Shown: piece after piece, positions 312-42,548 of the stretch
Layout of the letters: every line of letters begins with the position of its first letter
Position numbering within the stretch: position 1 is the stretch's first letter
NCBI GenBank assembly: GCA_021737275.1
Contig: JAIPEE010000032.1
Span: 1-47,903, forward strand
Reading direction: 5' to 3'
Source of the DNA: Desulfobacterales bacterium
Lineage (GTDB): Bacteria > Desulfobacterota > Desulfobacteria > Desulfobacterales > JAIPEE01
DNA length: 47,903 nucleotides
Made by a program: the position numbers and the translations under genes
The notes under the pieces: model-generated
The model's database searches: none
The model's input: the letters and a program-made list of their open reading frames with translations, nothing else
What the model was told of the DNA's origin: nothing

Positions 312-3300
312 TCAATCACGATACTCCTTCCACTTGGAGCGCCCGGTGGTAAAGTCCTTAACCGGCAAATTGTCCTGATTGATCTCTTTGATCTCACCGG
401 TACTGGTCTGGACAAATGCCTTTGTTCCATCACCATCCTCATCTCCTGACCCGACATGGAGATTCGGGGTGGTAGCCATACCCCTTCCAAGGGTCAGCTT
501 ATTCTTGACATTGCCACTGGGATCAATACCAAAGATATCTTCATACCATGATGTTCCGGTCTTGTAATACACAGCATAGAGGTAGGCGCTGCCTTCTGCC
601 TCGCACACGCCGCTGTTTGGCTGATACGTGGTAAAGGTGACAAGCCCGCCAAGGAGGGTGGCCTGGCCGACATTCTTTTCCCGGTTTTCATAGGGCCAGA
701 AATCCTTGTACCAGCCATCCGTGCAGTTATTTTTATAGTTTTTGTCATTATAATCCGAACCTGAACAAGTGGGCAGTTCCGTACAGTTATTGTTTATGCA
801 CCTGCCTGTTCCAGCGATATACTTCTCCATCTTGTCGAAATAGGGGAGATCCAGTTTACTGCCTGGGGGCAGAATCTCGCCGGAAGCATACCAGGGCATA
901 CAACCATAGCCAGCGATGGGGGCTCGCTCACCGTCAGAGTTCACATCAATTGTTTCTCCACATTCCAGGGCCGCATTTTCTTTATCGGTACCCAGCGGCA
1001 CCAGGATTTCATCTACCTTAACCAACCCTTTTTCTCCGGGATCATTACCGGCAGTATCAAACAACTCCACTTCATGCCATAGCAGCTTCCTCTTTCTGTT
1101 TGCTCCATCATCTACAATTTCCATGGGTTCCTTCAAGCCATAGTAGCTCTGCTGTTGATGATCAGTCTTGTCCTCCGGGGAGAAAAAACGGCCGGTGCCG
1201 AAATAAATCCAGAAGTTATAGCCATCGGTACCCACAGAGGCTGCGGCAGTTACCGGCTGTAATGGATGCCCGGCAATTTGAGGTCTAACCCCATTAGGGT
1301 AAGTACCAAAGTCAACAGTGGTGCTGGAACCAAGGTTAAGCAGTGTATTCACCCTCCAGCTATCTGGTGTCGTAACCGGGTCTCCACCGGCTTTACCGAC
1401 AATGTGCCCACCGGGTTCCATGACCAGCCGATACATATGGCCGCCACCACTCCAGTAAGTTGTGCCATCAGGATAGGTACCGAAGCCCACATTTCCAAAC
1501 CTGTCCACCTCTCCTTCCACGGTACCGAAATAGACCGCATCTGACTTATACTCTTGGTAGCTGGGGTTAATATCATAATCAACGGTTATCATATCAGAGA
1601 CAAATGATCTGATTTGAGCCCCTGACGGGGCATAGGTTCCACCAGGATTACCAGCCGTGGGAACACCGGCAGGAATGCGCAGCGGGGTACCATTAGTCAG
1701 CCACTTAAGAGGCAAGACACTGATTTTGGAGCCCTGGTCACTCATGCCCTTCATGGCATCACTGCTGCTGGAATTGGCATCATGGGGCCCGCTTCCCAGG
1801 ATCAGATACCACTCATTGGTATCATCACTGGTATCAACCGGATCCACACCGTTATCTTTAATGATAGCCATTGTCGGAATCACTGAAGAGTAACCGAGAT
1901 CGACAGTGCCGGTACCGGTTTTTTGAGTCAACTCACCAAGAAGTACAGGCGGTTCCTCTGGATTGGTGATATCGAGGATGAAATAGGAGGAGATGAACTC
2001 TCTGGTATCTGTCGCATCACCAGAAAGTTCACTTGCCAGTATTGGTGAACCGCCATAGCGCATACCGCCAACCAGAATGGTTCCCCAGCCGTTGGTATGG
2101 ACATCGTCAGGTGGAAAAATCTGCACATCAAAAATCCTCGGCCGTTGATCGACGAAATATTTGTGGATATAATTCGGGTCAGTGAGACACTTGAGATGTG
2201 GGTGCAGATTATAAGGGACATAGGCCCACATTTCCTTGCCCAGAGGAGGCCCATTATCATTATAACCGTTGGCTAAATTACGATCATAGCCAAGGTAGAA
2301 TTTGTTATTCACATCATTGTAAAAGCCACCATTAACCGCATGGAGCATGCCGTCATTGGCACCAAAATAGACCATGTGGCGGCGTTCTTTCCACCTACTG
2401 AGAAACTCGGCATAGGAATAATCATTGTAGATGAGATGGTAGCCTTCAGCCGGGGCGGCCACGGTCATGGGGGTTGAATGGATAATATCCCCCAGGCGCC
2501 AGGTTGTAGAGTACGTATTGGCAGGGATGTCAGGATCATTCAGTAAGGACTGCCTGCTGCGCATTGCGGCATCAAGCTGCCCATTTCCATTGGTATCCTC
2601 ATCGGCATCAAGGCTACCGTTACCATTAACATCCTCAGCCTCAAGATCTTTTCCACGCATCCACCTGATAATCTTATCCACTTCTTTGGTGTTTGCGACA
2701 TCAAAATCCGACGGGTTAAGAGCAGGCCCACCGTCTGCATCGGCCTCAAAATCAACGGTTTCGCCAATATCAACCACGCCGTCATTATTACTATCCTTCC
2801 AGGTAAAAATATACCTGTGTCGATCGATGGCTGCGGTGAAATCAGCGGAACTGACGGCAGACCTGTTTGTCGCAGTCTGCAGAACGTCAGCGGCAGCAGG
2901 AATAACCGGATAGTCGGACAACCACTGGCTGGCAGACCAGAGGAAGTGCACTTGCTCCAGGTCAGTGACGTTGTTGCATCCAGCAGTATACCCTGCTCCC
3001 GTTGTTTCTATAGGAAAAACAGAGGTGTTCCAGCATGCCCGTGTTTTTTCCTCTCCGGGTGTATTGTCAAAGAAGATAATGACCCGCTTGTCGTGGCCAT
3101 CAATTACCCCATTATTATTCAAATCTTCATACTTGGTGTCAAAATGGCCATCATCATCCAGATCTTCACCGGGGAGATCAAAAACACCATTTCCGTTCAA
3201 GTCCTCGGTGAGGTCAAGTTCACCGTCATTATCACCGGCCTCATCCTCGCCAGGGTCCATGACACCATTACAATTAGTATCCTCACCGCAATCAAGATGA

Positions 3301-6300
3301 TTATCACCGTCAAGATCCTCTGATGGCTCCAGCTGACGGTTGCCATCGGTATCCTCGTACATAAAGCCGTTTTCATCGAGAAAGAGTCCGTGGACATCAC
3401 CTGCCCAGGCTACTTTTGTTTCATTCACTCCCGTTCCTCTGACCATTTCCGGCCAGAAGATGGCCTGATAGATAGCGCCTTCACCACCACGGGCCGAGGA
3501 AATAACAGAAGCAGCGGAACCGGCAGAAGACCTGTTCCTGAGCTCGTTGATGACAAGGAGTAATTGAGCTTCAAGTGCCGCAGGATTTTCTCCTCTCAAT
3601 GCTGTTTCAAAACCGCCTCCATTGGCAGCAGCACTGTCCATTAAAAGAGCCGGATTACATTCAGCAGGGTCACCAACTGCTGTTGAAACATTACGCAGTG
3701 CGCCGGCAGTGACAATATAAGTGGTTAGATTTTTCTTGGGTTTCAGACCAAAAGGAGCGTCCGCTTCGGGCAGGCCCGCGTTACCGGCAGGATAGACGGT
3801 AAACTCATTATGTTCATCGTAAGCAAAATAGACAAGATCATCCATATAGGTACTGCCCAGGAGGCCGCCTGTACACTGGTCTGCCACGAGATCATCCGCT
3901 GTCCCCTCACCATCATCAATAGGAACAGTATTAAAATTGCCGGCAAAAGTGGCATCTCCCCGTGCAAAGGCTTCGACCTTCGGATTAATATCAGCGGTTG
4001 AAGCACCCTCGCTGATGATCAGGATAGAGTTCGCCTGGCAGTGGTTGACAACCGGGTCAATAAAAAAGTCCCAACTCAACACAGCATCATACAGGGGTCC
4101 GCTCAGACCCAAAATGTTTGCTTCAGCCTTTAACGTCGACACACCTCCGGCAAGGGTCTGATAGAGTTTTCCACCATGGCTGACAATATCGTTGTCATTA
4201 TATACTGTACCATCACTCCAGGCTCCCCGGTAGGAAGCGACTGCGGTCCAGTTTACTCCGTTATCAGTGAGCAAGGCCCCCCCATCGGAGTAGCCGCCCT
4301 TGAGAGTCCGATAAAGTGATCCCCCTTCCAAGAGATAGGAATCCGGTCCATAGTAATAGTTGTTCTGCCACCCGGCGGTGACATCGCTGTCGGTCTGAAA
4401 ATCCCCTATATTGAGGCGCACATCAGTGTTTTGGGTGTAGTAGCCAAGGGCATTATAAACGGCCTCGGCAACCGGTGTCCATGATGTGGCACGGACATCA
4501 TTGACCGCATCAACCAGCTCAGCAACATGCAGCCTGCCGGTCTCAGTCGTCTGGCTGCCAAGTCTGATCCGGGAGATAACCTGTGCTCCGTCACGGTTGG
4601 TTCCGGGACAGTATTTCTCCATCATGGTTGTTGTGGTACCGACCGCACATTCCGTCTCTGCCCCGACACCGTTAAATGCCATGGCGCCGATACGTAGATC
4701 GGAGGCAGTGTTCTGTAAGATCCCGACAGGAGGGGTTGTTCGCAATCGCAATGCGGTCCCCTTCATCACGTTCATGGGGACATCAACTCCAAGCTGGTTA
4801 AGCATACCGGAATCAATCAGCAGGGCCGGGATATTCCCGTAATCACCGGAAGTGGATGTCTCCTGATCGGTGGGATCAATAACCTCTGGAATATTCAAAT
4901 CGTTGCAGTAGTCTTCCATGGCCTTTTGTGTACAATAGGCTCCCTCGTCGGATACCACCAGAGCACCGATTTTCTGCGGTGTATTAAAAGGCAGCGTTGC
5001 CGGCAGGAGCGCCGTATCATCTGCCGTGAACCCCGGGACCCCGTCAAGGTCATTAGAAAATTCGGCACCAGTTCCACCACCACCTGCACTGTAGATTGCA
5101 TCCGTGGGGTCACACTGCTCCCCAGAAAGGGAGTCAACTTCAAAATCTTTCCATTTTGCTGTATTTTTACATCCTTTGCTTATGTCCAAAGCGTCTTTCC
5201 ACTCAAAACAAACCTGCGTGTAGGCTTCGCCACTGTCGTTTTTCAGCAGGTGTACAGTACCTCCAGGAGCTGTATAAGAATACTCGCACGGATCGCCGAC
5301 ACATTTTGTCAGGTCTTTTGAGCGGGGATCACAGGTTGCCCCGGCCGCTGATGAGCCGAGAGACCAGCATCGCCCGACATAGCCGACCCGGTCGACATTA
5401 TAGAGACGATTATTATCAAAAATTCCGTAACAGTGATAGGCATTGGACCAGTTGGCAATATCGCTGGGATCCATTGCCTGGTAAACCTCATAACAGTCGG
5501 CAAGGGCTTGAGTGACGAGATTCGAATTTTCAAGATCGCTTATATTCTGCCAGCAATCCTGCATGGCATGATTCAAGGCATTACGGGGATCAGCCGCTGA
5601 GTTAGTGGCCCCAAGACAGGTGTCAATCTCATTCTGCGCACCATTTATCCCATGGGTAAGGATCTTATCAACGGCGGCCTGGCAGGCGCCCGCACTATAT
5701 CCGGTGGCGGAAACGGCCAACACTTCAATTCTTGTGGTATCATCCACCCCGTCAATCCTGTCTTTTTTGAAGGGGTCCCCATCCGTTCGTGGCCCACGCA
5801 CTGCGAGGGTCAGAAAGCCCGCCCCCCCATCCAGTGCAACCTGCTTGACAAAGCGCGAACCTGAACAGCCCCGGTTTTCAGAAACTATCCGTTCGGCACC
5901 CGCATAATATTTGCCGCCGGTGAGAATACTCTTCTGGATATCGAACTTGGATGCCGTGAGCCAGTTGAGAAAATTGCCACTGACACCAAAGGCAGTGGTC
6001 CGGGTCGGCTTCACTCCTAATGGATCTGTGTAGAGAGTAATACAAATACCATCGCTGGTATACTTGGTATTTCCCGCCGCAGCTGCCGCCGTGGTACATG
6101 CTGCCTGGGCATCGGTCGCCGAGACTTCTTCATAATACCCCTCATCTATGCGAAGCCAGTTGGCTGCAAAATCCGTTTCATAGAGAGTGTCTCCGCTAGA
6201 TGTGTGACCAAGCAGGGCCTCAAAGATCATGCCCTCATAGGTGACAATATCACCAACGACATAAGCCGTCCCGGTCTGCCATCCAAAGGGATCGATCTCC

Positions 6301-7079
6301 ATCCAGGCCACACCTTTATCGGTCCATGGCTTGGTTCCACTTGCAGTGCCGCCACTCATAGCTTGATAATGGACATCTTCCCACTGGACCAAGTCTCCTG
6401 CGGAATAGACCGTTCCATTCACCCAGGTTTTAACGATTTGCCAGTCCGAAATACCGGTATCAGTATCCAAGTCATCCCCGGCAGCAGTGCCGCCACCAGC
6501 GGTATAGTATGAGTAGCCATCGATGGGGTTGTAGATAAAACTTTTTGGATGGAACACTTTACCAGCCTTCCAGATAGGGCGGGTTATGGGATTCCATTCA
6601 ACCTGTTCGTCGTCATAGATATTTGCACCGGATGAGGCAACGCCGGTAACGGTTAAGGCCTCGTATACCAGACCATTGGCGTATACCTTATCGCCGACAC
6701 TGTAGACCTTCTGCTCCCATAACGGCTGGACATCCACCCATTTGTACCAGGCTTCGATGAGTGATGGGGGGGTGTTGCCATCCTCCTTATAGGACTGAAA
6801 AGAACCGGCATACATGGTGTACGGATCGGTATTCAAATCAAGCGGGACATAGTTGTCGTCAAAACAGTTCGTGGCAGCATTGACATAGGCTGTATCCAGC
6901 ATACTTCCTGAATTGTCAAGCAGCATCAGCAGGTTGGACTTAACCCCAAAGGCAAGAAATGGTGGTTCAGAGTTTCCCCTGCTGCAGACATCGCTGGCAA
7001 TTGCCATGCCTGGCAACGTGGTTAAAATCACACCCATCAGCAAAATGTTCAGGAAAGAATAGTGCATATAATTTTTCAT
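312..7079 (-). CDS. pilY1: PilY1-type pilus tip/adhesin protein with inserted binding modules
   Basis: Large type IV pilus tip protein, about 2,255 residues, roughly twice the length of Pseudomonas PilY1. The chosen ATG at 7079 follows GGTGGGTG and opens a typical signal peptide (hydrophobic core, then MAIAS); the frame stays open upstream to a TTG at 7184 without a good ribosome site. A von Willebrand A domain begins with the metal site DNSGSM at about residues 55-60. Within it are three repeats of a W...Y..GD.V...G..Y.A pattern (about 120-164, 217-262, 266-311), and two related ones near 905-985, resembling CBM5/12 chitin-binding modules. Two acidic DxNxDG clusters (about 1240-1335 and 1430-1505) look like dockerin/EF-hand calcium loops. 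The C-terminal PilY1 propeller includes YFGANDGMLHAVNGG near 1570. Last gene of the minor-pilin operon. Confidence 0.93.
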   Translation of the reverse strand: MKNYMHYSFLNILLMGVILTTLPGMAIASDVCSRGNSEPPFLAFGVKSNLLMLLDNSGSMLDTAYVNAATNCFDDNYVPLDLNTDPYTMYAGSFQSYKEDGNTPPSLIEAWYKWVDVQPLWEQKVYSVGDKVYANGLVYEALTVTGVASSGANIYDDEQVEWNPITRPIWKAGKVFHPKSFIYNPIDGYSYYTAGGGTAAGDDLDTDTGISDWQIVKTWVNGTVYSAGDLVQWEDVHYQAMSGGTASGTKPWTDKGVAWMEIDPFGWQTGTAYVVGDIVTYEGMIFEALLGHTSSGDTLYETDFAANWLRIDEGYYEEVSATDAQAACTTAAAAAGNTKYTSDGICITLYTDPLGVKPTRTTAFGVSGNFLNWLTASKFDIQKSILTGGKYYAGAERIVSENRGCSGSRFVKQVALDGGAGFLTLAVRGPRTDGDPFKKDRIDGVDDTTRIEVLAVSATGYSAGACQAAVDKILTHGINGAQNEIDTCLGATNSAADPRNALNHAMQDCWQNISDLENSNLVTQALADCYEVYQAMDPSDIANWSNAYHCYGIFDNNRLYNVDRVGYVGRCWSLGSSAAGATCDPRSKDLTKCVGDPCEYSYTAPGGTVHLLKNDSGEAYTQVCFEWKDALDISKGCKNTAKWKDFEVDSLSGEQCDPTDAIYSAGGGGTGAEFSNDLDGVPGFTADDTALLPATLPFNTPQKIGALVVSDEGAYCTQKAMEDYCNDLNIPEVIDPTDQETSTSGDYGNIPALLIDSGMLNQLGVDVPMNVMKGTALRLRTTPPVGILQNTASDLRIGAMAFNGVGAETECAVGTTTTMMEKYCPGTNRDGAQVISRIRLGSQTTETGRLHVAELVDAVNDVRATSWTPVAEAVYNALGYYTQNTDVRLNIGDFQTDSDVTAGWQNNYYYGPDSYLLEGGSLYRTLKGGYSDGGALLTDNGVNWTAVASYRGAWSDGTVYNDNDIVSHGGKLYQTLAGGVSTLKAEANILGLSGPLYDAVLSWDFFIDPVVNHCQANSILIISEGASTADINPKVEAFARGDATFAGNFNTVPIDDGEGTADDLVADQCTGGLLGSTYMDDLVYFAYDEHNEFTVYPAGNAGLPEADAPFGLKPKKNLTTYIVTAGALRNVSTAVGDPAECNPALLMDSAAANGGGFETALRGENPAALEAQLLLVINELRNRSSAGSAASVISSARGGEGAIYQAIFWPEMVRGTGVNETKVAWAGDVHGLFLDENGFMYEDTDGNRQLEPSEDLDGDNHLDCGEDTNCNGVMDPGEDEAGDNDGELDLTEDLNGNGVFDLPGEDLDDDGHFDTKYEDLNNNGVIDGHDKRVIIFFDNTPGEEKTRACWNTSVFPIETTGAGYTAGCNNVTDLEQVHFLWSASQWLSDYPVIPAAADVLQTATNRSAVSSADFTAAIDRHRYIFTWKDSNNDGVVDIGETVDFEADADGGPALNPSDFDVANTKEVDKIIRWMRGKDLEAEDVNGNGSLDADEDTNGNGQLDAAMRSRQSLLNDPDIPANTYSTTWRLGDIIHSTPMTVAAPAEGYHLIYNDYSYAEFLSRWKERRHMVYFGANDGMLHAVNGGFYNDVNNKFYLGYDRNLANGYNDNGPPLGKEMWAYVPYNLHPHLKCLTDPNYIHKYFVDQRPRIFDVQIFPPDDVHTNGWGTILVGGMRYGGSPILASELSGDATDTREFISSYFILDITNPEEPPVLLGELTQKTGTGTVDLGYSSVIPTMAIIKDNGVDPVDTSDDTNEWYLILGSGPHDANSSSSDAMKGMSDQGSKISVLPLKWLTNGTPLRIPAGVPTAGNPGGTYAPSGAQIRSFVSDMITVDYDINPSYQEYKSDAVYFGTVEGEVDRFGNVGFGTYPDGTTYWSGGGHMYRLVMEPGGHIVGKAGGDPVTTPDSWRVNTLLNLGSSTTVDFGTYPNGVRPQIAGHPLQPVTAAASVGTDGYNFWIYFGTGRFFSPEDKTDHQQQSYYGLKEPMEIVDDGANRKRKLLWHEVELFDTAGNDPGEKGLVKVDEILVPLGTDKENAALECGETIDVNSDGERAPIAGYGCMPWYASGEILPPGSKLDLPYFDKMEKYIAGTGRCINNNCTELPTCSGSDYNDKNYKNNCTDGWYKDFWPYENREKNVGQATLLGGLVTFTTYQPNSGVCEAEGSAYLYAVYYKTGTSWYEDIFGIDPSGNVKNKLTLGRGMATTPNLHVGSGDEDGDGTKAFVQTSTGEIKEINQDNLPVKDFTTGRSKWKEYRD

Positions 7080-7180: not shown

Positions 7181-7807
7181 TCAATCGTAGTTGCAGCCAC
7201 CCTCAGTACCAACCAGATGCCGCCAGCCGAAAAGGATAATGGATTCACTATTTGATAATCCATTAAACTGGGAGTAGATGTTGACTATCTTTCCAACCCC
7301 GCCCTGTCCGGCTGCCTTTCCCTTTCCTTCATAACCGGCTGCCATCTGCAGGGCGCCACCGGGCAGCATTTGTGTTTCACCGCCCACATAGAGATGACCC
7401 ACGTCTATCCCGGAGGCGATGTTGGCGATGGGAAATGCGACGTCGGCTGTAGCGATATTGCCAATATCTGTCGGAGCCTCATTATCCTGCAAAAGAAGGT
7501 TACCATTCCTCTCATATACCCGCACAAGGGTGCCGCTAAGATCGGCTGCATTCTCAGGATCATTGTTTTTATTAAACCCTGTTGGACAATTAAAGGACTG
7601 TTCCACAATTTCAGTACCAAGAACGGCCCCGGCCTCTGCCTCGTAAAAGGTTTTTTTATGGATCTTATCATTCCCGGCAATCTGGAGTTCGATGGAGGTG
7701 TTTGTCGTGGTCGCTATGCCGATAATCGTGAGAACCAGCATGATCAAAAGGGAAGTGATAAGGATAAATCCCTTTTCATTTTCCATATGTTTTGGTTGTA
7801 TTTCCAT
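7181..7807 (-). CDS. pilX: Minor pilin PilX
   Basis: Minor pilin, 208 residues. The short leader ends ENEKG before FILITSLLIMLVLTIIGIA, the class III signal and hydrophobic helix of a type IV pilin. GNDKIHKKTFYEAEAG fits the PilX N-terminal family, in which the Phe-Tyr-Glu-Ala-Glu stretch is conserved. In Pseudomonas, PilX primes pilus assembly with PilV, PilW and FimU and carries PilY1. The ATG at 7807 follows GCGGAAC, directly after the pilV stop (13-base gap). An internal ATG seven codons later lacks a ribosome site. About 100 bases separate it from the chosen pilY1 start. Confidence 0.88.
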   Translation of the reverse strand: MEIQPKHMENEKGFILITSLLIMLVLTIIGIATTTNTSIELQIAGNDKIHKKTFYEAEAGAVLGTEIVEQSFNCPTGFNKNNDPENAADLSGTLVRVYERNGNLLLQDNEAPTDIGNIATADVAFPIANIASGIDVGHLYVGGETQMLPGGALQMAAGYEGKGKAAGQGGVGKIVNIYSQFNGLSNSESIILFGWRHLVGTEGGCNYD

Positions 7808-7820
7808 TATATTGTTCCGC

Positions 7821-8258
7821 TTACAGGTATTTTGCTTTGAGGTAATTCATGGTCATAGTTTTTGTTATCCCTGCTTCTGTTCTCTGGACAATGACTCGAA
7901 TTGATTTCGTATCCGGCATCACAAGGTCATCGGCAATGTTCCAGTAAATGGTGTAAAATCCATCTGCTGACACTATTGGACCACCATCTGCTGTGCCACC
8001 GGTTTCATCAAGGCCTGCTACCCCGTTAGGGGCAGTATCGTCTTCAAGAAGAGCGTTGTCATACTCCCAGGCAAAAATCTGTTCCAACTGGTCTGCACTC
8101 CAGTCCGAGGCAACAGTCAGGTGACTGGCCTGGCTATTACCTTTAATCGCGGTTACCTGCATGGTGGTGACAGCTGCTATCCCTATGGCCAGGATCACAA
8201 CAGCCACGAGAACTTCTATCAGAGTAAAACCCTGCTGAGTCAATACGTCTTTCTTCAT
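7821..8258 (-). CDS. pilV: Minor pilin PilV
   Basis: Type IV pilus minor pilin of about 145 residues. The prepilin site QQG/FTLIEVLVAVVILAIGI is followed by AAVTTMQVTAIKGNSQA and SDWSADQLEQI, typical of PilV, where the region after the helix is better conserved than the C terminus. The ATG at 8258 lies just after the pilW stop and follows GTGGGAA; a longer start at 8276 would overlap pilW by 14 bases and give six extra leader residues. Acts in the inner-membrane priming complex with FimT, PilW, PilX and PilY1. Confidence 0.86.
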   Translation of the reverse strand: MKKDVLTQQGFTLIEVLVAVVILAIGIAAVTTMQVTAIKGNSQASHLTVASDWSADQLEQIFAWEYDNALLEDDTAPNGVAGLDETGGTADGGPIVSADGFYTIYWNIADDLVMPDTKSIRVIVQRTEAGITKTMTMNYLKAKYL

Positions 8259-8262
8259 AGTC

Positions 8263-9030
8263 TTAAATTCCCACATTTCTGCATTCCACTCTCATGATCT
8301 GCATTCTCCTTCTGAAATTGTCATTTACTACCCAACCTTCAGCAGGTGTCACTCCATATGCTGCACCGGGTGTCCCGCCATACTCTGCAAGTTGTGAAGC
8401 TGGAGTATATGTTTGATTGTTTGTAACATTTCTATCTGGGTTATCAGCCCGCGCCAGAACAGAAATCACAACGGTCCGTACCTGACTCTCAACGGTTGTC
8501 AGGACACCATCCTGATCAAGATAAAAGAACTCCAGTTGCTCAATATTTTCTATTGCCTGCTGATGACCAGTGGCAACCTTACGACCGGTCCCTGCATCTG
8601 TGGTGATTGGAATATCTGTCGTCGTATTGTCAGCTGACACCGTTCTTCCCAGTGTCATTGGACCTGTAGCAGTTAACTTGTACAAATCATAAGCAATACG
8701 TTCCCCGGCATCATCAACATCCCCGTCCTCATTAAGATCAACAGTGAAAGACAAGAGATCCGGTTCAGCATTGACTATTTTAGCCTCACCTGATCCATAC
8801 TCTTCAAAGCCTGCCATGCGAATATCCCTGGTCAGCAAATGCAAGGCCGCACGAATATTTTGCTGCATGGCTGTTACGTCAAGCTGCGCACTATAATGCC
8901 GCTGCTGGTACACATATGTTGTGGAGATAGCCGTCAACACTATGCCGGAAATTGCCATGGCAATCATCAGTTCGACTAACGTGAAGCCGTTGCACTTTTG
9001 GTTTGAGAAGATTCCTTTTTGGGTCCACAT
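8263..9030 (-). CDS. pilW: Minor pilin PilW
   Basis: Type IV pilus minor pilin, 255 residues. Leader ending KCNG, then FTLVELMIAMAISGIVLTAI. The motif YVYQQRHYSAQLDVTAMQQN followed by IRAALHLLTRDIRMAGFE is the hallmark of PilW (and of GspJ-like pseudopilins). The long variable C-terminal half is consistent with a PilW globular domain. Encoded between the fimT-like gene (12-base gap) and pilV. The order W-V here is swapped relative to the V-W order of Pseudomonas aeruginosa. Confidence 0.88.
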   Translation of the reverse strand: MWTQKGIFSNQKCNGFTLVELMIAMAISGIVLTAISTTYVYQQRHYSAQLDVTAMQQNIRAALHLLTRDIRMAGFEEYGSGEAKIVNAEPDLLSFTVDLNEDGDVDDAGERIAYDLYKLTATGPMTLGRTVSADNTTTDIPITTDAGTGRKVATGHQQAIENIEQLEFFYLDQDGVLTTVESQVRTVVISVLARADNPDRNVTNNQTYTPASQLAEYGGTPGAAYGVTPAEGWVVNDNFRRRMQIMRVECRNVGI

Positions 9031-9042
9031 ATTTTTGCTCTA

Positions 9043-9555
9043 TTATTGAATTGTTACGTTCCCGGCTATGCTCTGATTTATAACATATTGCTTTGTTACT
9101 TCCAGATGCTTCAACCTGACTGTCCATTCAGGAGGCGTAGGAGGTACACCCAATGACAAGCCACGGGAGTCAAAGCCACTGGTTCCATTTGCAAAATCAG
9201 AAAAATAGATACAAACCCCACTGTCCATCACTTTATTTACAATCACATCTCCATCCTCGTCTGTAAACGTATAGCTGGTAGGGGTCAAACAATCTGGCAC
9301 AACAGTAAAACTGAATGTGACATCATTGTTGGTTTTGGCCGCATGCAGCTTTGCCTTTTGAAAATTGGCGTAGAGTTCATGGGTGGCTGCCTTCAGGTTG
9401 GCACTGGGAACCCATCGCATAAGTAATGGAAAAGCAATTGCACTGAAAATCGCTACAATAATTACAGTCATCACCATCTCAACCAAGGTAAACCCTTTAC
9501 TCTCAGGTCGATAGTGATGTGGCTGGCTTGATCTTTTCTTTGTTGTGTTTACCAT
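9043..9555 (-). CDS. fimT: GspH/FimT-family minor pilin
   Basis: First gene of the minor-pilin operon, 170 residues. Leader RPESKG, then FTLVEMVMTVIIVAIFSAIA and FPLLMRWVPSANLKAATHEL. The following LYANFQKAKLHAAKTNNDVT is the conserved GspH/FimT region (helix, then the start of the beta-sandwich). FimT/FimU-type pilins connect the minor-pilin tip complex to the main shaft; some FimT proteins bind DNA for uptake, which cannot be judged here. Which of FimT or FimU is the better name is not decidable by eye. Confidence 0.85.
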   Translation of the reverse strand: MVNTTKKRSSQPHHYRPESKGFTLVEMVMTVIIVAIFSAIAFPLLMRWVPSANLKAATHELYANFQKAKLHAAKTNNDVTFSFTVVPDCLTPTSYTFTDEDGDVIVNKVMDSGVCIYFSDFANGTSGFDSRGLSLGVPPTPPEWTVRLKHLEVTKQYVINQSIAGNVTIQ

Positions 9556-10601: not shown

Positions 10602-10663
10602 ATAAAAAGATAAGCACAGGAAACAAAACAACAAAAGTAAACAACTACGCAGGACATCCTTTT

Positions 10664-10679
10664 TGGCATATATTTTGCT
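10664..10679 (+). promoter_or_regulatory. Sigma-54 promoter of orphan short pilin
   Basis: TGGCATATATTTTGCT matches the consensus TGGCAC-N5-TTGCW except at one base, with the required ten bases between GG and GC. It lies about 75 bases before the pilin ATG. The intergenic stretch 10413-10663 otherwise shows no gene. Confidence 0.7.
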
Positions 10680-10752
10680 AGCCAAAGCGGTATACTTCTT
10701 TTTTTTAACTTATCCCAGGAAAAATATCATTCTAAGAAATATTGTGAAACTA

Positions 10753-10965
10753 ATGCAGAAAAAGAGAAACGAAAATGGTTTCACTCTGGTCGAACTGATG
10801 ATCGTTGTTGCTATCATCGGTATACTGGCTGCTATTGCTATTCCACAGCTGAGTTTATATCGTTCAAAGGCCTTCAATTCTACTGCTGTTAGTGATGTTA
10901 AGGTTTTCAAAACATGCCTAGAAAGCTACTACTCTGAAAACCAGGCATACATCAAGAACAATTAA
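10753..10965 (+). CDS. Short type IVa pilin, PilA-N-like (orphan copy)
   Basis: 70-residue prepilin. Leader MQKKRNENG, cleavage before Phe, then FTLVELMIVVAIIGILAAIA and IPQLSLYRSKAFNSTAVSDV. The mature chain is 61 residues, the length of Geobacter PilA-N. Aromatic positions 27 and 57 (Tyr), 32 and 43 (Phe) and 50-51 (Tyr-Tyr) partly match that protein; residue 24 is Leu instead of Phe and Cys is at 46. The ATG at 10753 lacks a strong ribosome site; GTG at 10744 is an alternative. Unlike the pilin at 11602, no PilA-C partner follows. Under its own sigma-54 promoter. Confidence 0.85.
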   Translation: MQKKRNENGFTLVELMIVVAIIGILAAIAIPQLSLYRSKAFNSTAVSDVKVFKTCLESYYSENQAYIKNN

Positions 10966-11371
10966 TACACTCATACAATTACAATAACAAAGAGACCATT
11001 CACGAATAAAACTTCCCGTTGCTTTTCTCCATTCCCCCTTTTTAATTCCGTTCATAGAGCAACTGTTTCCTGTAATCGACCGGAGACTTGGCTGAACGTC
11101 GAAAACTGCTTCAGAAAAAGTGCCACAAGCTTATGAATGAAAGATTCATCCAATTCAAACACCCATAACGTTACCATTACCATTGCCTTTATTTCGGCGA
11201 CATTTTACTCCCGAGCAGATTGAACCACCACAGCTCTTAAGAGCCAACATCAATGACGATAACCTTGCAGTACCTCTAAACAAATGATAGCCCAGATTTT
11301 TTCAGGTGTTCTGTTACAATATTGCGTATTAACAAATCTACAAATCCCTAATCTTTAAAAAAAGAGATTCA

Positions 11372-11400
11372 CGCGGTGACAATTTTTGTCACCGCGTTTT
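11372..11400 (+). terminator. Strong hairpin with short T-tract between the pilins
   Basis: CGCGGTGACAA (11372-11382) and TTGTCACCGCG (11386-11396) are perfect 11-base arms around a 3-base loop, followed by TTTT. It has the shape of a Rho-independent terminator that would isolate the orphan pilin transcript from the pilA-N/pilA-C operon. It also embeds two of the TGTC boxes, so it may instead or additionally be part of an activator-binding region. Confidence 0.6.
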
Positions 11401-11431
11401 GGCAAACTGACAAAAGCCGACAAAAAATGTC
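11378..11431 (+). promoter_or_regulatory. Cluster of five TGTC/GACA boxes, possible PilR sites
   Basis: GACA or TGTC cores occur at 11378, 11387, 11409, 11419 and 11428, with spacings of 9, 22, 10 and 9 bases, so close to one helical turn. They lie about 100-155 bases upstream of the sigma-54 promoter at 11533, a usual distance for an enhancer-binding protein. Pseudomonas PilR recognises tandem TGTC-core sites before pilA. Assignment to PilR is by analogy; no pilR gene is in the window. Confidence 0.45.
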
Positions 11432-11532
11432 ACTTCCCCCAAAACTATACTTCTTAAAAATATAAGGCAACAACGAGTTAACCATCTATAAAACAGCGCA
11501 AATAAGAAAAATAAAGACACCGATAACATTAT

Positions 11533-11548
11533 TGGCACAGACTATGCA
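11533..11548 (+). promoter_or_regulatory. Sigma-54 promoter of pilA-N/pilA-C
   Basis: TGGCACAGACTATGCA matches TGGCAC-R-N4-TTGCW with one change (A for T at the start of the -12 half) and correct ten-base GG-GC spacing. It lies 54 bases before the pilA-N start codon, which is preceded by GGAGGAG at 11591-11597. Confidence 0.75.
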
Positions 11549-11601
11549 AAGAAGTGTTTGAAGACATACTTTTTTTATCAACTTTTTACTGGAGGAGTAT
11601 C

Positions 11602-11838
11602 ATGTTAAAAAAAATCAGGAAATCACTACAAAACAAGGACAACGAAAAAGGTTTTACCTTGATTGAGCTGATGATTGTTGTTGCCATCATCGGGATATTA
11701 GCTGCTATTGCCATCCCACAGTTTGCTTCATTCCGTGTAAAAGCTTTCAACTCTGCAGCGTCTTCTGATGTGAAAAACATCAAGACATCGTTGGAAAGTT
11801 TTTATTCTGATCATCAATCTTATATCGAAAACGCATAA
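11602..11838 (+). CDS. pilA: Short type IVa major pilin PilA-N
   Basis: 78-residue prepilin started at the ATG after GGAGGAG. Leader ends NDNEKG; the mature chain begins FTLIELMIVVAIIGILAAIA, continues IPQFASFRVKAFNSAASSDV and is 61 residues. Length, helix sequence and aromatics (Phe1, Phe24, Phe27, Phe32, Phe50, Tyr51, Tyr57) closely parallel Geobacter sulfurreducens PilA-N. In that family a single short helix is completed by a separate PilA-C protein, encoded here 28 bases downstream. Glu5 of the mature protein, needed for assembly, is present. Conductive-pilus claims for such proteins are disputed; sequence alone cannot settle function. Confidence 0.92.
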   Translation: MLKKIRKSLQNKDNEKGFTLIELMIVVAIIGILAAIAIPQFASFRVKAFNSAASSDVKNIKTSLESFYSDHQSYIENA

Positions 11839-11866
11839 TATTCCCTCAACGACAAAAGGTGGCCAC

Positions 11867-12268
11867 ATGAAAAAACTAATTATTATCACATTATTAACGT
11901 TTGTATTTTCTCCATTAACTCAAGCTTTTGCAGGTTCTGTTGCGGAAGTATTAGCACCCGGTGTAGGGGCAAAAATTGGATTTAACGCATCAACCAACGT
12001 TGATCTCCTTTACGGTAACGAGAGTTTTGTTGCTCCAGCATCACCACAAGCCTACGTCGTAATGGCCAAACACATTGCTGGAAACAAGGTGATAGCCACG
12101 ACATCCATGTCGAATTTAGTCCAAAGTAACACAGTAGAGGACTGCAAAGGTTTGGACACTCTTGCGTGTATAGGTCTTGCTGACCTAACCGCTACATTGC
12201 TCAATGCTGATGACAACGGAAATGACAATATAGATGGACTTATTACTGCTGGCTGGGAAGAATTATAA
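11867..12268 (+). CDS. PilA-C-like secreted partner of the short pilin
   Basis: 133 residues, ATG after AAGGTGG. An N-terminal Sec signal (KKLIIITLLTFVFSPLTQAF, cleavage about AFA/GS) is followed by a Gly/Asn/Ala-rich, probably beta-rich domain: GVGAKIGFNASTNVDLLYGN, then AYVVMAKHIAGNKVIATTSM. Two cysteines (EDCKGLDTLACIG) could form a disulfide. Position directly after pilA-N, size and signal peptide match Geobacter PilA-C (also called Spc), which forms the globular half of a two-chain pilin. The assignment rests mainly on context plus this pattern. Confidence 0.75.
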   Translation: MKKLIIITLLTFVFSPLTQAFAGSVAEVLAPGVGAKIGFNASTNVDLLYGNESFVAPASPQAYVVMAKHIAGNKVIATTSMSNLVQSNTVEDCKGLDTLACIGLADLTATLLNADDNGNDNIDGLITAGWEEL

Positions 12269-13965: not shown

Positions 13966-14906
13966 ACCCAATAATAGATATACAAACACTCGGAAAAACC
14001 TTTCGCGGAAAAAAGAGAGACACATCCGTTGTAGCAATAAAGGATCTGAGCCTTCAGGTCAAACCCGGAAAGATCTTTGGCTTCGTGGGACCAAATGGTG
14101 CCGGGAAGAGTACTACTATCAAAATACTCCTTGGTTTCATCAAAGCAGATCATGGCACAGCAACCCTATGCAATATGCCGGTAAAATCAGAACAATGCCG
14201 TAACCGTGTTGGCTATCTTCCAGAAAATCCTGTTTTCCATGACTTCTTGACAACCAAGGAAGTATTGGAAACAACTGCAGTACTTCGGGGGGTCGCAAAA
14301 CAGCATATTACAAAGGAGGTAACGGATTTACTTGAAAAAGTAGAACTCCGAGAGAGCTCCAATCGACCAATCCGCGGCTTTTCCAAAGGAATGACTCAAA
14401 GACTTGGAATTGCCAACGCCCTCGTTGGAGATCCTGACCTGCTCATCCTTGACGAACCCATGTCAGGACTAGACCCTCTTGGCCGCAATCTTGTCCGCGA
14501 ATTAATGCTTGAGCAACGTGAGAAGGGAAAAACTATCTTTTTCAGCTCTCATATCCTTCATGATGTTGAAACCATATGCGATGAGGTGGGAATTTTGTTA
14601 CAGGGAGAGCTCAAATTTCAAGGAAAACTTGCTACAATTACCAACCAACAGGCAGGCAGCTTTGTCTTACAATTTAAATCTGAAAAGAAATACCCTGATC
14701 TGGCGATCTTTTTAGAAAAACATCAACTCTCACTCAACAGCATCACTGCAGATATTTTTGAGCTCACCGTTCCACAAAAGGCTCTCTCCGAAATATTAAC
14801 ATCTTTAATCGACCTGCAGTGTCAGATTGTCAACCTGCAACAGCATCACCCCTCCCTTGAGAACTTCTTCATGAAGCTGGTAAATGATAATGAAAAGATC
14901 ATCTAA
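13962..14906 (+). CDS. ABC transporter ATPase (PilH-like position)
   Basis: 314 residues. Walker A GPNGAGKST (about 43-51), Q-loop region YLPENP, signature FSKGMTQR, Walker B LLILDEP followed by the D-loop SGLD, and switch His in SSHILHD. The C-terminal 90 residues form a regulatory tail typical of the NatA/CcmA class. It energises the permease encoded two genes upstream. Its last 8 bases overlap the convergent STT3 gene. The set resembles Myxococcus PilH with PilG/PilI; the transported molecule is unknown. Confidence 0.9.
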   Translation: MNPIIDIQTLGKTFRGKKRDTSVVAIKDLSLQVKPGKIFGFVGPNGAGKSTTIKILLGFIKADHGTATLCNMPVKSEQCRNRVGYLPENPVFHDFLTTKEVLETTAVLRGVAKQHITKEVTDLLEKVELRESSNRPIRGFSKGMTQRLGIANALVGDPDLLILDEPMSGLDPLGRNLVRELMLEQREKGKTIFFSSHILHDVETICDEVGILLQGELKFQGKLATITNQQAGSFVLQFKSEKKYPDLAIFLEKHQLSLNSITADIFELTVPQKALSEILTSLIDLQCQIVNLQQHHPSLENFFMKLVNDNEKII

Positions 14907-17016
14907 CCTGCCAGACCTGTGCATTAAAGTTATCCAGAAAAAAAGGTGTGAAATATCCATTTTCATGATCAGAACGAATAAAAAGACGATTAAAAATAGA
15001 ATTCCACAAAATTTCATCCATTAAAACTGCAGTTCTCAGTTTTCTCTGCACAAACATGATATCTTCTCCATCAGAAAATGTTCGCCTTGTGGTTTCAGTA
15101 CCATCCTGGTCATAGATTTCAGATAACTGCTGCGTATATTCACCCCTAGATAATTGCCCCGATTGAAAATCAACATGCTTACCCCATATCGTACGGAAAT
15201 CATTTTCTCCTAACAAAATATCGGTAAACAAGCTGTAACTTGTATGTATCCCTTCCTGTTTACCAATATCCCAAGTACCATACCAATACCACCAATATGC
15301 AGACGGCAGCATTCGCCGATGTAAAAAGAGAAAAACAGGATCCTGATTACTAGGAAAGAAAAATGCAAACCAGTCTATAGGGTCCAGGCCCTTTCCTTGA
15401 TTATGACTGACCGGTAACTGTTTGCACAAATCAGTTACACTTAACGGCTCTGCAGACAAAATTTCTCTTATTTTTTCTAGCGCATCACTTTCACTAAGCC
15501 CGGTGCGTCTCCGAAACTCCCCAATTCCTGTCTGTCCTCTTACTACAAAAAACTTCATGAAATTGGCAGCAAGCCTTGGATCATCCTGGGCCAACGGCCA
15601 ATAAAGAAAATGGGACAACCTACCGGAATGGATAGCCCCATCACTGATTGTGGCCCTTTGAGCCCAGTAATTAATAAGATATCCTTTTCCCCAGGTTGAC
15701 CAGATCACAGCATTATCAGGGGTGTTCTTTTTTACCTGCACCAGCGCATGAACATCATTACGTTTAATAAAAGGCCAGGTAGTGATATTATAGGTGGAAT
15801 GAAAATGGTAGGAAACAGTCAGCAGAAAAAAGATCAATACTGCTAATAATCGAAATGACCTTTTCCCTGAGTTCCAGAACTCTGCGAGAAAAAACCCAAG
15901 TCCTAACGCTAGAACAGGCACCAGAAAGACCAGGAAACGACTGGCATAAAATATCCCCAGGAAACCAATTAAAGCAGGTACAGCAAGAATAATACAATCT
16001 CTTCTACGCTTAATAAGTAAGCCCAGCAGACCACTCAAAGATAAAATAAAGATATAAACAGTATTCGTCGTATGTTTTATAATTTTCTGAAAATCAAACT
16101 GTTGCTGCTCTGATATACTTGTACCAATATTTGGATATGTGGAATCTGCCACTTTAGAAATATAAGTAAACTTGGAGTACATTTGATTGAAAATCTCAAC
16201 ATAAAACGCAAGCCCCTTACTCACTAACAGATAAATGGCTATGCCAGACAGAACTGCATAAAAAACATACCCTTCCTTACGGGATGGTCGATAATAACAC
16301 CCTAGCACCATGAACAAATACGTACACGACATCACCAAGACAACAGCAGGGGCCTGATCCCACCACATATACAAAGTAAAAGTCGATAACAGCGCACAGA
16401 AAAAATGTAACATCCTCTGACTGAGACGCTTTGATATCGCGAACCCATAGTAAAACAGGCCAATACAAAGCACCAGGGTTACATTCAAACAATCTGTATC
16501 GAAAAAACCGATCCTGCTTCTCAAGACATAACTATAGGCAAGAACGGTAAAAACAGCCGCCGAACATCCCATAAATCTGCCATTGAAGGTTTTTCCAAAA
16601 AAATATACTGGAAAGATAATCATGGTTCCGAGGAAAACCGGCAGCATCGCACCAACCCAGTTCAATGACAACCCGGTCAATCGTACAATACTGGCCGCCA
16701 ACCATGAGAAAAGTGGAGGAATGGAAGGACGCAACGGATGATCTGGAACACCTCGCATTTCATTAACAGTGTTATAGGTGCCATCCAACAAATCCTGACT
16801 TAACGAAAGATAATAATACCCATCAACAGAGGTAAGCAGCGGCTCACCGCTATAAAATGCACGATCTGGCTGCTCCAGCCAATTTGGCAGATAATCTAAC
16901 CTTACAGTGACTGCCAGGCAAAAAATTGCAATGAGCAGAATTGACGGCCAAAGATTAGAAAAAGAAATAGTATTAAAACAATTGGTTTTTATCTTTATGG
17001 AACTTTTTTCTGCCAT
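14899..17016 (-). CDS. STT3/PglB-type oligosaccharyltransferase with divergent WWD motif
   Basis: 705 residues, about a dozen membrane helices then a soluble C-terminal domain, the architecture and size of STT3/PglB. The first acidic motif is at Asp65 (SVDGYYYL), the DXD-like FFDTD at 171-175, and SISEQ at 299-303 equals the TIxE/SVSE loop. Arg359 in YASRFLVFLVPVLA fits the conserved RF motif. The sequon-reading WWDYG motif is replaced by WSTWG (438-442). It should move a lipid-linked glycan to a periplasmic protein, perhaps pilin, given the adjacent pilus genes. The altered motif suggests changed acceptor choice; an O-linked or other transfer cannot be excluded. Confidence 0.85.
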   Translation of the reverse strand: MAEKSSIKIKTNCFNTISFSNLWPSILLIAIFCLAVTVRLDYLPNWLEQPDRAFYSGEPLLTSVDGYYYLSLSQDLLDGTYNTVNEMRGVPDHPLRPSIPPLFSWLAASIVRLTGLSLNWVGAMLPVFLGTMIIFPVYFFGKTFNGRFMGCSAAVFTVLAYSYVLRSRIGFFDTDCLNVTLVLCIGLFYYGFAISKRLSQRMLHFFCALLSTFTLYMWWDQAPAVVLVMSCTYLFMVLGCYYRPSRKEGYVFYAVLSGIAIYLLVSKGLAFYVEIFNQMYSKFTYISKVADSTYPNIGTSISEQQQFDFQKIIKHTTNTVYIFILSLSGLLGLLIKRRRDCIILAVPALIGFLGIFYASRFLVFLVPVLALGLGFFLAEFWNSGKRSFRLLAVLIFFLLTVSYHFHSTYNITTWPFIKRNDVHALVQVKKNTPDNAVIWSTWGKGYLINYWAQRATISDGAIHSGRLSHFLYWPLAQDDPRLAANFMKFFVVRGQTGIGEFRRRTGLSESDALEKIREILSAEPLSVTDLCKQLPVSHNQGKGLDPIDWFAFFFPSNQDPVFLFLHRRMLPSAYWWYWYGTWDIGKQEGIHTSYSLFTDILLGENDFRTIWGKHVDFQSGQLSRGEYTQQLSEIYDQDGTETTRRTFSDGEDIMFVQRKLRTAVLMDEILWNSIFNRLFIRSDHENGYFTPFFLDNFNAQVWQVR

Positions 17017-40661: not shown

Positions 40662-42548
40662 GATAACTTCGTAAAAACTATTTTCAGCACAACATCTTAA
40701 TTTTACGTAATAAAACCGAAATTACTCGTTGCCGAAAAACTTATTTTATGTTAATATTATCTCGTAATTTCAAATAAATACGAGGGAATAAATGTTTCAT
40801 GTAAAAAACCACAAACAGCTTAACATTTTCGATCCCTGGGGCCATCTGGGGCCTAAGAGACGAAAACTTCTCGCTCAGTCATGGTCGGGGCTATTCCAGG
40901 AGAAAATTCTCACCGAAATGCCGGTGGAGACCCTGCGCAGCCACTACCACGAATGGAATGGTCGTCCCACCAAGGAACTCTATTCCATGATGGGACTGAT
41001 GGTTCTCCAACAGATGCATGATTTCACCGACGACCAAGCTGTGGAACAGTTTTGTTTTAACATCCAGTGGCACTATGCCCTCAATATTACCAACGCCTCT
41101 GATGCGGCCTCCTACATCAGTCATAAATCTCTCTGGACCATGCGTGACTTCATGTCCACAGATGAGACATATAATGAAATATTTGATAACGCACTGCAAA
41201 CATTAGCCAAGCTCTTCAAGGCCGACCTGTCCAAGCAGCGCATGGACTCCGTGCATGTGAAATCCAATATGCGCAATCTCGGCCGTATCGGGCTGTTCGC
41301 AAGAACCATCAAAAAATTCCTGGTCAACCTGAAACGTCAGTATCGTAGTCTCTTTGATCAACTTGACGATAGCCTGACGAGGCGTTATCTCGGCAAAAAA
41401 GAAGGATCTCTTTTCGCCATGGTCAAGCCTTCAGAGTCAAGCAGGACTCTTGATCAACTCGCTGAGGATGTATTTATCCTGACCCAACATTTTGGTTCAA
41501 AAACATCCATCCACGACATGAGCAGCTTTAAGCTGCTGGTTCGGCTTTTCAAGGAACAGTGCATCGTCGCAGACGATACAACAGGTTCCGCCGAACCAAA
41601 GGCCGTCGCCCGACCAAATAAAGATGTGCCTTCCGATTCTCTGCAAAATCCCTCTGATCCGGATGCCGGTTACAGCAGCCATAAAGGACAGGGTTATCAA
41701 GTGCAGGTCGTTGAGAATTACACTGAAGGTGACGATAAACAGCTTTCCCTGATTACCCATGTTGCCGTTGAATCAGCGGACCGGCACGATGCCGGCAGCC
41801 TGCTGCCTGCCTTGGCAAAACTTAAGCAGCGCGAGATGGCTCCGGAGCAGATCCTCGCTGATTCGCTCTATGGCAGCGACAGCAATTGCGAGCAAGCACA
41901 AAAGGAGCATGACGTTACCGTGATTGCCCCGGCTATGCCCGGCAATCAGAAGAAAATGCACCTTGCTGATTTTACCATCAACGACCAGGGCTGGATTACT
42001 TCCTGTCCTCAAGGTTCTGCCCCGATCAGGGTGAAAAAAATATCAACTGGCTTCAGTGCATCCTTTACACCAAGTGTTTGCTCCAAATGCCCTCTGTTTA
42101 AACAATGCCCCGTCTGCAAAGGGAAGAAGGCCTATTACATCCGTTATAAACACAAAGATATTCGCCTTGCCCACCGCAGACGCATTGAGTCCACAGCCTC
42201 ATTCAAGGACAAATACAGATTCAGGGCTGGAGTCGAGGCGACCATGTCTGAATTCGACCGGCGAACGGGTGTCAAGCACCTTCGGGTACGCGGCATGAAA
42301 GCTGTATGTTTTGCCGCGGTGATGAAGGCCATAGGTGTCAACATTTTCAGGGCCAGTCGGCACAGAAAGTGGCAAATCGACCCATTGATACCACAATGTG
42401 GTGCTTTTTTGACCGTCTTGGCTGTCTGCTGCCTTATCAAAGAGCAATTCAAGCGACGTTTACAAAAACACATCGCATTTTATATAAACTTTCAGCCGAA
42501 TCGGTTGAATCGGTTGAAAATGGCTTTTTAGCTTTTTACGATGCCATC
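40662..42548 (+). mobile_element. IS1182-like insertion sequence
   Basis: 1,887 bp, flanked by direct repeats AATTTT (40656-40661 and 42549-42554). Left end GATAACTTCGTAAAAAC; right end, read inward, GATGGCATCGTAAAAAG: 13-14 of the outer 16 bases match. It carries one transposase gene. The termini match those of the four miniature elements (GATGGCGTCGTAAAAAC and GATAAACTCGTA). It lies in tandem with one such element and splits a minus-strand glycan operon. The family call rests on the transposase. Confidence 0.85.
40792..42531 (+). CDS. DDE transposase, IS1182-like
   Basis: 579 residues, ATG after GAGGGA. N-terminal DUF772-type domain (HYHEWNGRPTKELYSMMGLM; FNIQWHYALNIT). Candidate catalytic residues: Asp in MDSVHVKSNM, Asp in ILADSLYGSDSN, and Glu in EATMSEFDRRTGVKHLRVRG. 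A cysteine cluster (CSKCPLFKQCPVCKGKK) lies between. Full length for the family and without frameshift, so probably active. GC content is higher than the surrounding glycan genes. Confidence 0.9.
   Translation: MFHVKNHKQLNIFDPWGHLGPKRRKLLAQSWSGLFQEKILTEMPVETLRSHYHEWNGRPTKELYSMMGLMVLQQMHDFTDDQAVEQFCFNIQWHYALNITNASDAASYISHKSLWTMRDFMSTDETYNEIFDNALQTLAKLFKADLSKQRMDSVHVKSNMRNLGRIGLFARTIKKFLVNLKRQYRSLFDQLDDSLTRRYLGKKEGSLFAMVKPSESSRTLDQLAEDVFILTQHFGSKTSIHDMSSFKLLVRLFKEQCIVADDTTGSAEPKAVARPNKDVPSDSLQNPSDPDAGYSSHKGQGYQVQVVENYTEGDDKQLSLITHVAVESADRHDAGSLLPALAKLKQREMAPEQILADSLYGSDSNCEQAQKEHDVTVIAPAMPGNQKKMHLADFTINDQGWITSCPQGSAPIRVKKISTGFSASFTPSVCSKCPLFKQCPVCKGKKAYYIRYKHKDIRLAHRRRIESTASFKDKYRFRAGVEATMSEFDRRTGVKHLRVRGMKAVCFAAVMKAIGVNIFRASRHRKWQIDPLIPQCGAFLTVLAVCCLIKEQFKRRLQKHIAFYINFQPNRLNRLKMAF

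Follow-up and report, generated by a model that had tools for sequence, protein, structure and literature searches.

The 47,903-nucleotide window analysed in this study, contig JAIPEE010000032.1 of a Desulfobacterales bacterium (assembly GCA_021737275.1), carries on its reverse strand (312-7079) a pilY1 gene whose product contains six modules related to carbohydrate-binding module (CBM) families 5 and 12, arranged in two blocks within a von Willebrand factor A (vWA)-like N-terminal region. Based on sequence and predicted structure, we propose that this PilY1 is a multivalent, glycan-binding-type pilus-tip adhesin whose CBM5/12-fold modules would provide a polyvalent grip on polysaccharide, a reading to which we assign a probability of approximately 0.55.

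The pilY1 open reading frame (ORF) is intact and complete, encoding 2,255 amino acids (aa) counted from the ATG at 7079, which is preceded by a purine-rich aaaggtggg followed by tgat-ATG and which falls at the same place as the PilY1 starts of relatives. Residue numbers given here follow the translation P0001, which begins at TTG 7184 (P0001 residue = ATG-based residue + 35). The C-terminal propeller PF05567 is recognised by Pfam (E 2.8e-9; 36.8 bits against a cut-off of 28.1) and has one match in the genome, which comprises 4.26 Mb in 104 contigs and is 96% complete. The doubled length claimed for this protein in the initial annotation holds in comparison with Pseudomonas aeruginosa PilY1 (1,161 aa, taken from the residue range in PMC13190605), while the protein is only ~1.4 times as long as its 16 complete module-less relatives with vWA anchors (median 1,623 aa).

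312..7079 (-): pilY1, 2,255 aa, ATG at 7079
1863..2495 (-): PilY1 beta-propeller match, P0001 1564-1774, PF05567

Related loci were retrieved with an alignment query, a single-protein query having found none. A named-genome scan kept 80 of 334 relative-encoding loci, mostly of Desulfobulbaceae and Desulfobacterales, and yielded 89 PilY1 ORFs; the comparison set of 95 ORFs consists of these, the window gene and five further ORFs (L038 and L108 are the same module-less gene, counted twice). Pfam CBM_5_12 (PF02839) matches the window protein in four stretches (E 5.5e-19; 68.4 bits against a curated cut-off of 26.2). A family-specific hidden Markov model (HMM), seeded with the modules of the window and of three relatives and then iterated, identifies six modules, none with an E above 2e-10; when the same 95 proteins were shuffled, its best match was 0.013. 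The repeats are thus real, but where three to five had originally been counted there are six by this HMM, four at P0001 155-346 (site A) and two at 937-1039 (site C):

6585..6722 (-): module 1, site A, P0001 155-200, HMM E 1e-11
6432..6575 (-): module 2, site A, P0001 204-251, HMM E 2e-10
6294..6431 (-): module 3, site A, P0001 252-297, HMM E 1e-17 (Pfam place 6315-6428)
6147..6284 (-): module 4, site A, P0001 301-346, HMM E 7e-14 (Pfam place 6177-6281, E 3.3e-9)
4239..4376 (-): module 5, site C, P0001 937-982, HMM E 2e-12
4068..4226 (-): module 6, site C, P0001 987-1039, HMM E 7e-11 (Pfam place 4152-4223, E 8.8e-7)

Across the window and its relatives, PF02839 matches 27 of 29 module pairs, modules 3-4 scoring 62.3 bits. 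Module 4 is the most canonical, with an HTS motif and a sequence match to the ChiA1 chitin-binding domain (1ED7) at E 9.7e-5. Searched against solved structures, the module sequences come closest to the tandem CBMs of Vibrio chitin oligosaccharide deacetylases (E 1.9e-8). For the site-C pair taken by itself the match is weak (2RTS, E 0.32).

Structure prediction points the same way. An AlphaFold2 model of modules 3-4, computed with 29 aligned pairs, reached a predicted local distance difference test (pLDDT) score of 90.2, and Foldseek returned the same Vibrio tandem CBMs as top match (E 2.3e-6), with a TM score of 0.80 and a root-mean-square deviation (rmsd) of 2.2 to the 45-residue 1ED7 domain. 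VIA-align placed 1ED7 at Z 5.9 (rmsd 1.8, 44 residues) and the deacetylases at Z ~7, values to be read with the program's own note that Z of ~7 to 8 can be background; nearly all of its top rows belong to one domain type, with which the sequence comparisons agree. The CBM5/12 (small ski-boot) fold of the modules is therefore supported by sequence and model, as the initial annotation had surmised, and the unrelated fold that it named as the contrary outcome was not obtained.

The N-terminal region that houses the modules is, in our interpretation, a vWA-like domain bearing a metal ion-dependent adhesion site (MIDAS); it is weak by Pfam, and the assignment draws on motifs, topology and profile comparison:

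6900..6938 (-): beta-1 and MIDAS motif DNSGSM, P0001 83-95
4671..4700 (-): RIGAMAFN strand region of the vWA core, P0001 829-838, from the profile alignment to vWA domains
4431..4484 (-): SWTPVAEA segment with MIDAS threonine, and helix, P0001 901-918
3996..4040 (-): CQANSILIISEGAST strand of the vWA core, P0001 1049-1063

The MIDAS residues (DxSxS, T, D/E) occur in order and on the right elements, and all 43 alignment rows share, without exception, D25, S27 and S29 of DxSxS and T838, the threonine of WTP (numbered as in the model). The vWA profile was made from 11 of 30 candidate vWA loci of related genomes (the motif was required, and minus-strand loci were misread). Against it, hhalign gave E 2.1e-4 and a probability of 46% on cut-and-joined cores (reversed control, E 0.69), aligning beta-1/DxSxS, the RIGAMAF strand, the WTP segment and the ILIISEG strand in that order; with the middle insertion kept, just a short end stretch aligned (E 6.2e-4, 28%). 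Searching the window protein with Pfam VWA gave nothing at E<=10, and NCBIfam makes no N-terminal vWA call; none of six relatives' N-termini exceeded the Pfam cut-off, two giving sub-threshold fragments (0.084 and 0.19). A 1,130-residue N-terminal model was of fair quality (pLDDT 80.8; predicted TM score 0.82), and a PDB fold search with it returned the modules and no vWA, an absence that carries no evidential weight.

Module-less relatives read straight through at residues ~140-345 and 934-1040, for which reason the module blocks are considered clean insertions. The site-A block begins ~60 residues past DNSGS, within a long insertion that module-less relatives share, and the site-C block follows the WTP helix and precedes the ILIISEG strand. 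The initial description of the modules as interrupting the domain directly after the metal site is thus only roughly correct.

Modules were detected in 36 of the 95 related PilY1 ORFs (105 modules in total), with Desulfobulbaceae and cable bacteria among the carriers. The 53 ORFs with usable vWA anchors include all 36 and place the modules at three sites only: A alone in 18, B alone in nine, A and C in seven, B and C in one and C alone in one. Sites A and B never co-occur among the 36, an exclusion which we do not claim as a rule, the number of independent events being small. All three cable-bacterium records met by name (L122, L130 and L166) carry modules, those of Candidatus Electrothrix aarhusensis (L166), a PilY1 additional to the 36, being three in a separate ORF adjoining the PilY1 ORF. 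The PilY1 of this record is split over two ORFs of 643 and 1,164 aa (L166:6989-13235), the result of either misassembly or a disrupted gene.

A tree of the C-terminal region of 52 ORFs clusters the window gene with L094 and L095 (97 in the SH-like approximate likelihood ratio test), and module states are clustered on it (12 changes, compared with 28 for shuffled states), modules having been gained, moved or lost several times. When modules were paired by best match, position was kept for all six window modules in both L094 and L095 and for all four site-A modules in both L097 (Desulfopila aestuarii) and L131; this conserved order between species indicates that the arrays are old and differentiated. 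No sign of recent acquisition of the module DNA was found, the GC content at third codon positions (GC3) of the blocks (0.54) being close to that of neighbouring gene parts (0.53 and 0.56). The tree sets pilY1 among Desulfobulbaceae genes although the genome belongs to another order of the same phylum, which would be compatible with a horizontal origin of the whole gene, but GC3 of pilY1 (0.51) lies near the 0.57 of glmM in the same window.

The placement of this protein at the pilus tip, also put forward in the initial annotation, is backed by its PilY1 identity, by its operon and by published models in which the PilY1 N-terminal domain sits at the very tip above PilX, PilV, PilW and FimU (PMC13190605). 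The gene comes right after pilX in a minor-pilin operon, with the following genes upstream on the same strand:

7181..7807 (-): pilX-like minor pilin, PilX_N E 2.4e-13
7821..8276 (-): pilV-like minor pilin, TIGR02523 E 6.8e-13, 49.3 bits against a cut-off of 52.2
8263..9030 (-): pilW-like minor pilin, PF16074 E 8e-4 (below cut-off), plus N_methyl
9043..9555 (-): FimT/GspH-like minor pilin, N_methyl E 1.5e-6

Taken as a tip adhesin of the cell's type IV pilus, PilY1 would be mounted at the pilus tip by PilX, PilV, PilW and FimT (the gene order is observed, the assembly presumed) and would expose its vWA-like front domain, two loops of which would bear the tandem modules (four in the site-A loop, two in the site-C loop). 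If the published tip models hold, up to six modules per tip would therefore face outward. Differentiated and keeping their places, these may bind extracellular polysaccharide repeats many at a time, so that the tip would hold strongly and polyvalently to matrix, particles or partner cells, with pilus retraction then pulling on this grip. Chitin bound by way of the known CBM5 surface is probably not the ligand; a polysaccharide of the matrix or of a capsule is the likelier candidate.

Y265 and W299 of CjCBM5 are the two conserved core aromatics of CBM5, and chitin-binding members possess in addition an almost fully conserved surface aromatic pair, Y-W or W-W (PMC8449059). The core is retained in our set, column 9 being Y/F in all 104 filled rows and column 43 W in all 100 (of 105 modules). 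Several observations weigh against a glycan-binding role. The surface pair is, by reading, present in none of the six window modules, and columns 25 and 26 are aromatic in just 2/105 and 1/105 modules; a looser pair pattern near this place is found in 5/105, including window module 5 by virtue of a YYY stretch elsewhere. To these may be added that three of six modules of L100 fail to match by position, that modules share 34-46% identity in most comparisons while the rest of the protein shares 40-59%, a faster divergence compatible with a shifting ligand and equally with weak constraint, and that the top VIA-align match (Z 8.3, rmsd 1.4, 48 residues) is a tailspike module of cyanophage Pam1 (7eea). 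This match, together with the missing chitin-contact pair, would suit the main rival, in which the CBM5/12-fold modules have a structural role as spacers, shields or rigid arms, giving the vWA-like domain its shape or projecting its metal site, and bind no sugar themselves. VIA-align also matches phage tail fibres, baseplates and T4 capsid proteins, and a CBM at the end of a cyanophage neck fibre failed to bind host cells (PMC10966104). A plain spacer, however, has no need of several differentiated modules in fixed order, nor would it be expected to keep place-bound surface signatures across species: an aromatic at column 23 occurs in 16/20 second site-A modules (module 2 of the window included) versus 8/85 others, one at column 36 in 11/19 last site-A modules, and the HTS histidine in 5/105 modules, four of which are the fourth module of site A. 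Relatedness inflates such counts, and these residues are leads to candidate binding sites and not proof. We regard the spacer role as a possible but doubtful explanation.

Chitin itself as the ligand, with attachment to chitinous particles, is favoured by the nearest solved relatives by sequence, which act on or bind chitin, and by the HTS stretch of module 4, which aligns with ChiA1, in which H681 and W687 have a role in binding. It is nevertheless improbable: the surface pair is absent, the genome has no match to glycoside hydrolase families GH18 and GH20 (GH19 was not searched for), and a profile search of the genome found no other convincing CBM5/12 protein, the sole other place being a 44-aa frame at E 0.28. 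Because of the missing pair and hydrolases, chitin as a specific target was down-weighted, and the part of the initial annotation that proposed chitin-like surfaces is not supported, while its alternative, binding of some other polysaccharide, appears plausible; the lack of GH18 and GH20 also means that adhesion fits better than chitin feeding. The fixed sites inside the vWA-like domain and the conserved module order would also suit docking between proteins, be it tip to tip, tip to minor pilin or tip to cytochrome. This is highly improbable in our estimation, since the characterised members of the fold bind sugars (PMC8449059), and no evidence for such a partner was found, nor was a search for one made.

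The glycan-binding tip adhesin proposed here shares with the vWFA-bearing proteins P. aeruginosa PilY1 and Myxococcus xanthus PilY1.3 the C-terminal propeller, a probable N-terminal MIDAS-type vWA and the minor-pilin operon. It differs from them in its two CBM5/12-fold blocks within loops of the vWA-like domain, in its much greater length and in a long insertion that divides the core of this domain. M. xanthus PilY1.1 and PilY1.2 likewise present a lectin-type domain at the N-terminal end, but in these DUF4114 replaces the vWA whereas the window modules are nested within the vWA-like domain; for PilY1.1, genetic evidence supports exopolysaccharide binding through the lectin-like DUF4114 (PMC9109919). 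With ChiA1 (1ED7) and the Vibrio deacetylases (3wx7, 4nz1) the modules have in common the fold, the core Y and W and a sequence relationship, with the deacetylases also the tandem arrangement; in contrast, they lack the surface pair, show a GGTS-G...DDTGVxW second half and are nested in an adhesin and not joined to an enzyme. The CBM-like modules of Pam1 (7eea), phage 7-7-1 (9rkv) and Milano (8fqc) have the same fold, but belong to phage fibres. Streptococcus sanguinis PilB (vWA) and PilC (lectin) also have modules grafted onto pilus-tip subunits, although on minor pilins, in a Gram-positive organism and with no CBM5/12 (PMC9109919).

Modules of this type in PilY1 look undescribed in the literature searched, which covered titles and abstracts outside subscription journals and preprints and yielded no report of them, since a 2026 survey of 15 studied PilY1/PilC proteins identifies vWFA and DUF4114 as the sole conserved N-terminal domains (PMC13190605). 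PilY1-mediated adhesion has been proposed from expression data for syntrophic sulfate reducers, in a paper the main text of which contains no carbohydrate or CBM terms (PMC10553843). The ligands of type IV pilus tips are largely unknown outside a few pathogens, and the modules described here lend themselves to direct ligand screening; moreover, sediment sulfate reducers and cable bacteria, groups for which it is an open question how cells attach and make contact with partners, both possess them. The source organism, in which dsrA has a strong match, is for that reason probably a sulfate reducer. More tentatively, the Desulfobulbales and their neighbours, including cable bacteria, might have evolved a glycan-reading tip in which position-specialised CBM5/12-fold modules, in fixed order within three vWA loops, combine capture and force sensing in one unit, forming a lineage-wise polyvalent code for matrix or partner recognition.

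Just before the propeller lies an acidic tract, enlarged in L100 to 17 motifs within 120 aa and mostly lacking in the nearest module-less relatives, which is possibly a calcium-stiffened linker:

3129..3329 (-): acidic D-x-N/D-(x-)G repeat tract, P0001 1286-1352, probable calcium-binding

Beyond the minor pilins, the region 10663-12268 encodes two short N-methyl pilins of ~61 mature residues each, with ends near 10965 and 11838, which resemble Geobacter-type PilA-N; a 133-aa secreted protein that follows may be a PilA-C partner. Further on are ABC genes and an STT3-type oligosaccharyltransferase at 14899-17016 (PF02516 E 5.5e-15). A large surface-polysaccharide cluster with ABC export and many glycosyltransferase genes occupies 20194-47479, close to the pilus genes and broken by a transposase at 40792-42531, and could make the polysaccharide that a tip adhesin would meet.

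In wider scans, in which at most 30 loci were listed per genome census and most frames were judged by length, the module profile matched 46 of 257 genomes in the order of G554 and 14 of 389 in that of the window, at least one of the latter (G293) through a protein other than PilY1. This (L084:2185-4743) is a multihaem, CxxCH-rich cytochrome-like protein, a predicted electron-transfer protein with CBM5/12-like modules, four by eye (PF02839 E 2.1e-4 and 4.0e-4). Four further loci of the same order (L090, L091, L092 and L093) encode surface-type proteins with a CBM5/12-like module, most of them with collagen-like GxxGxx stretches.

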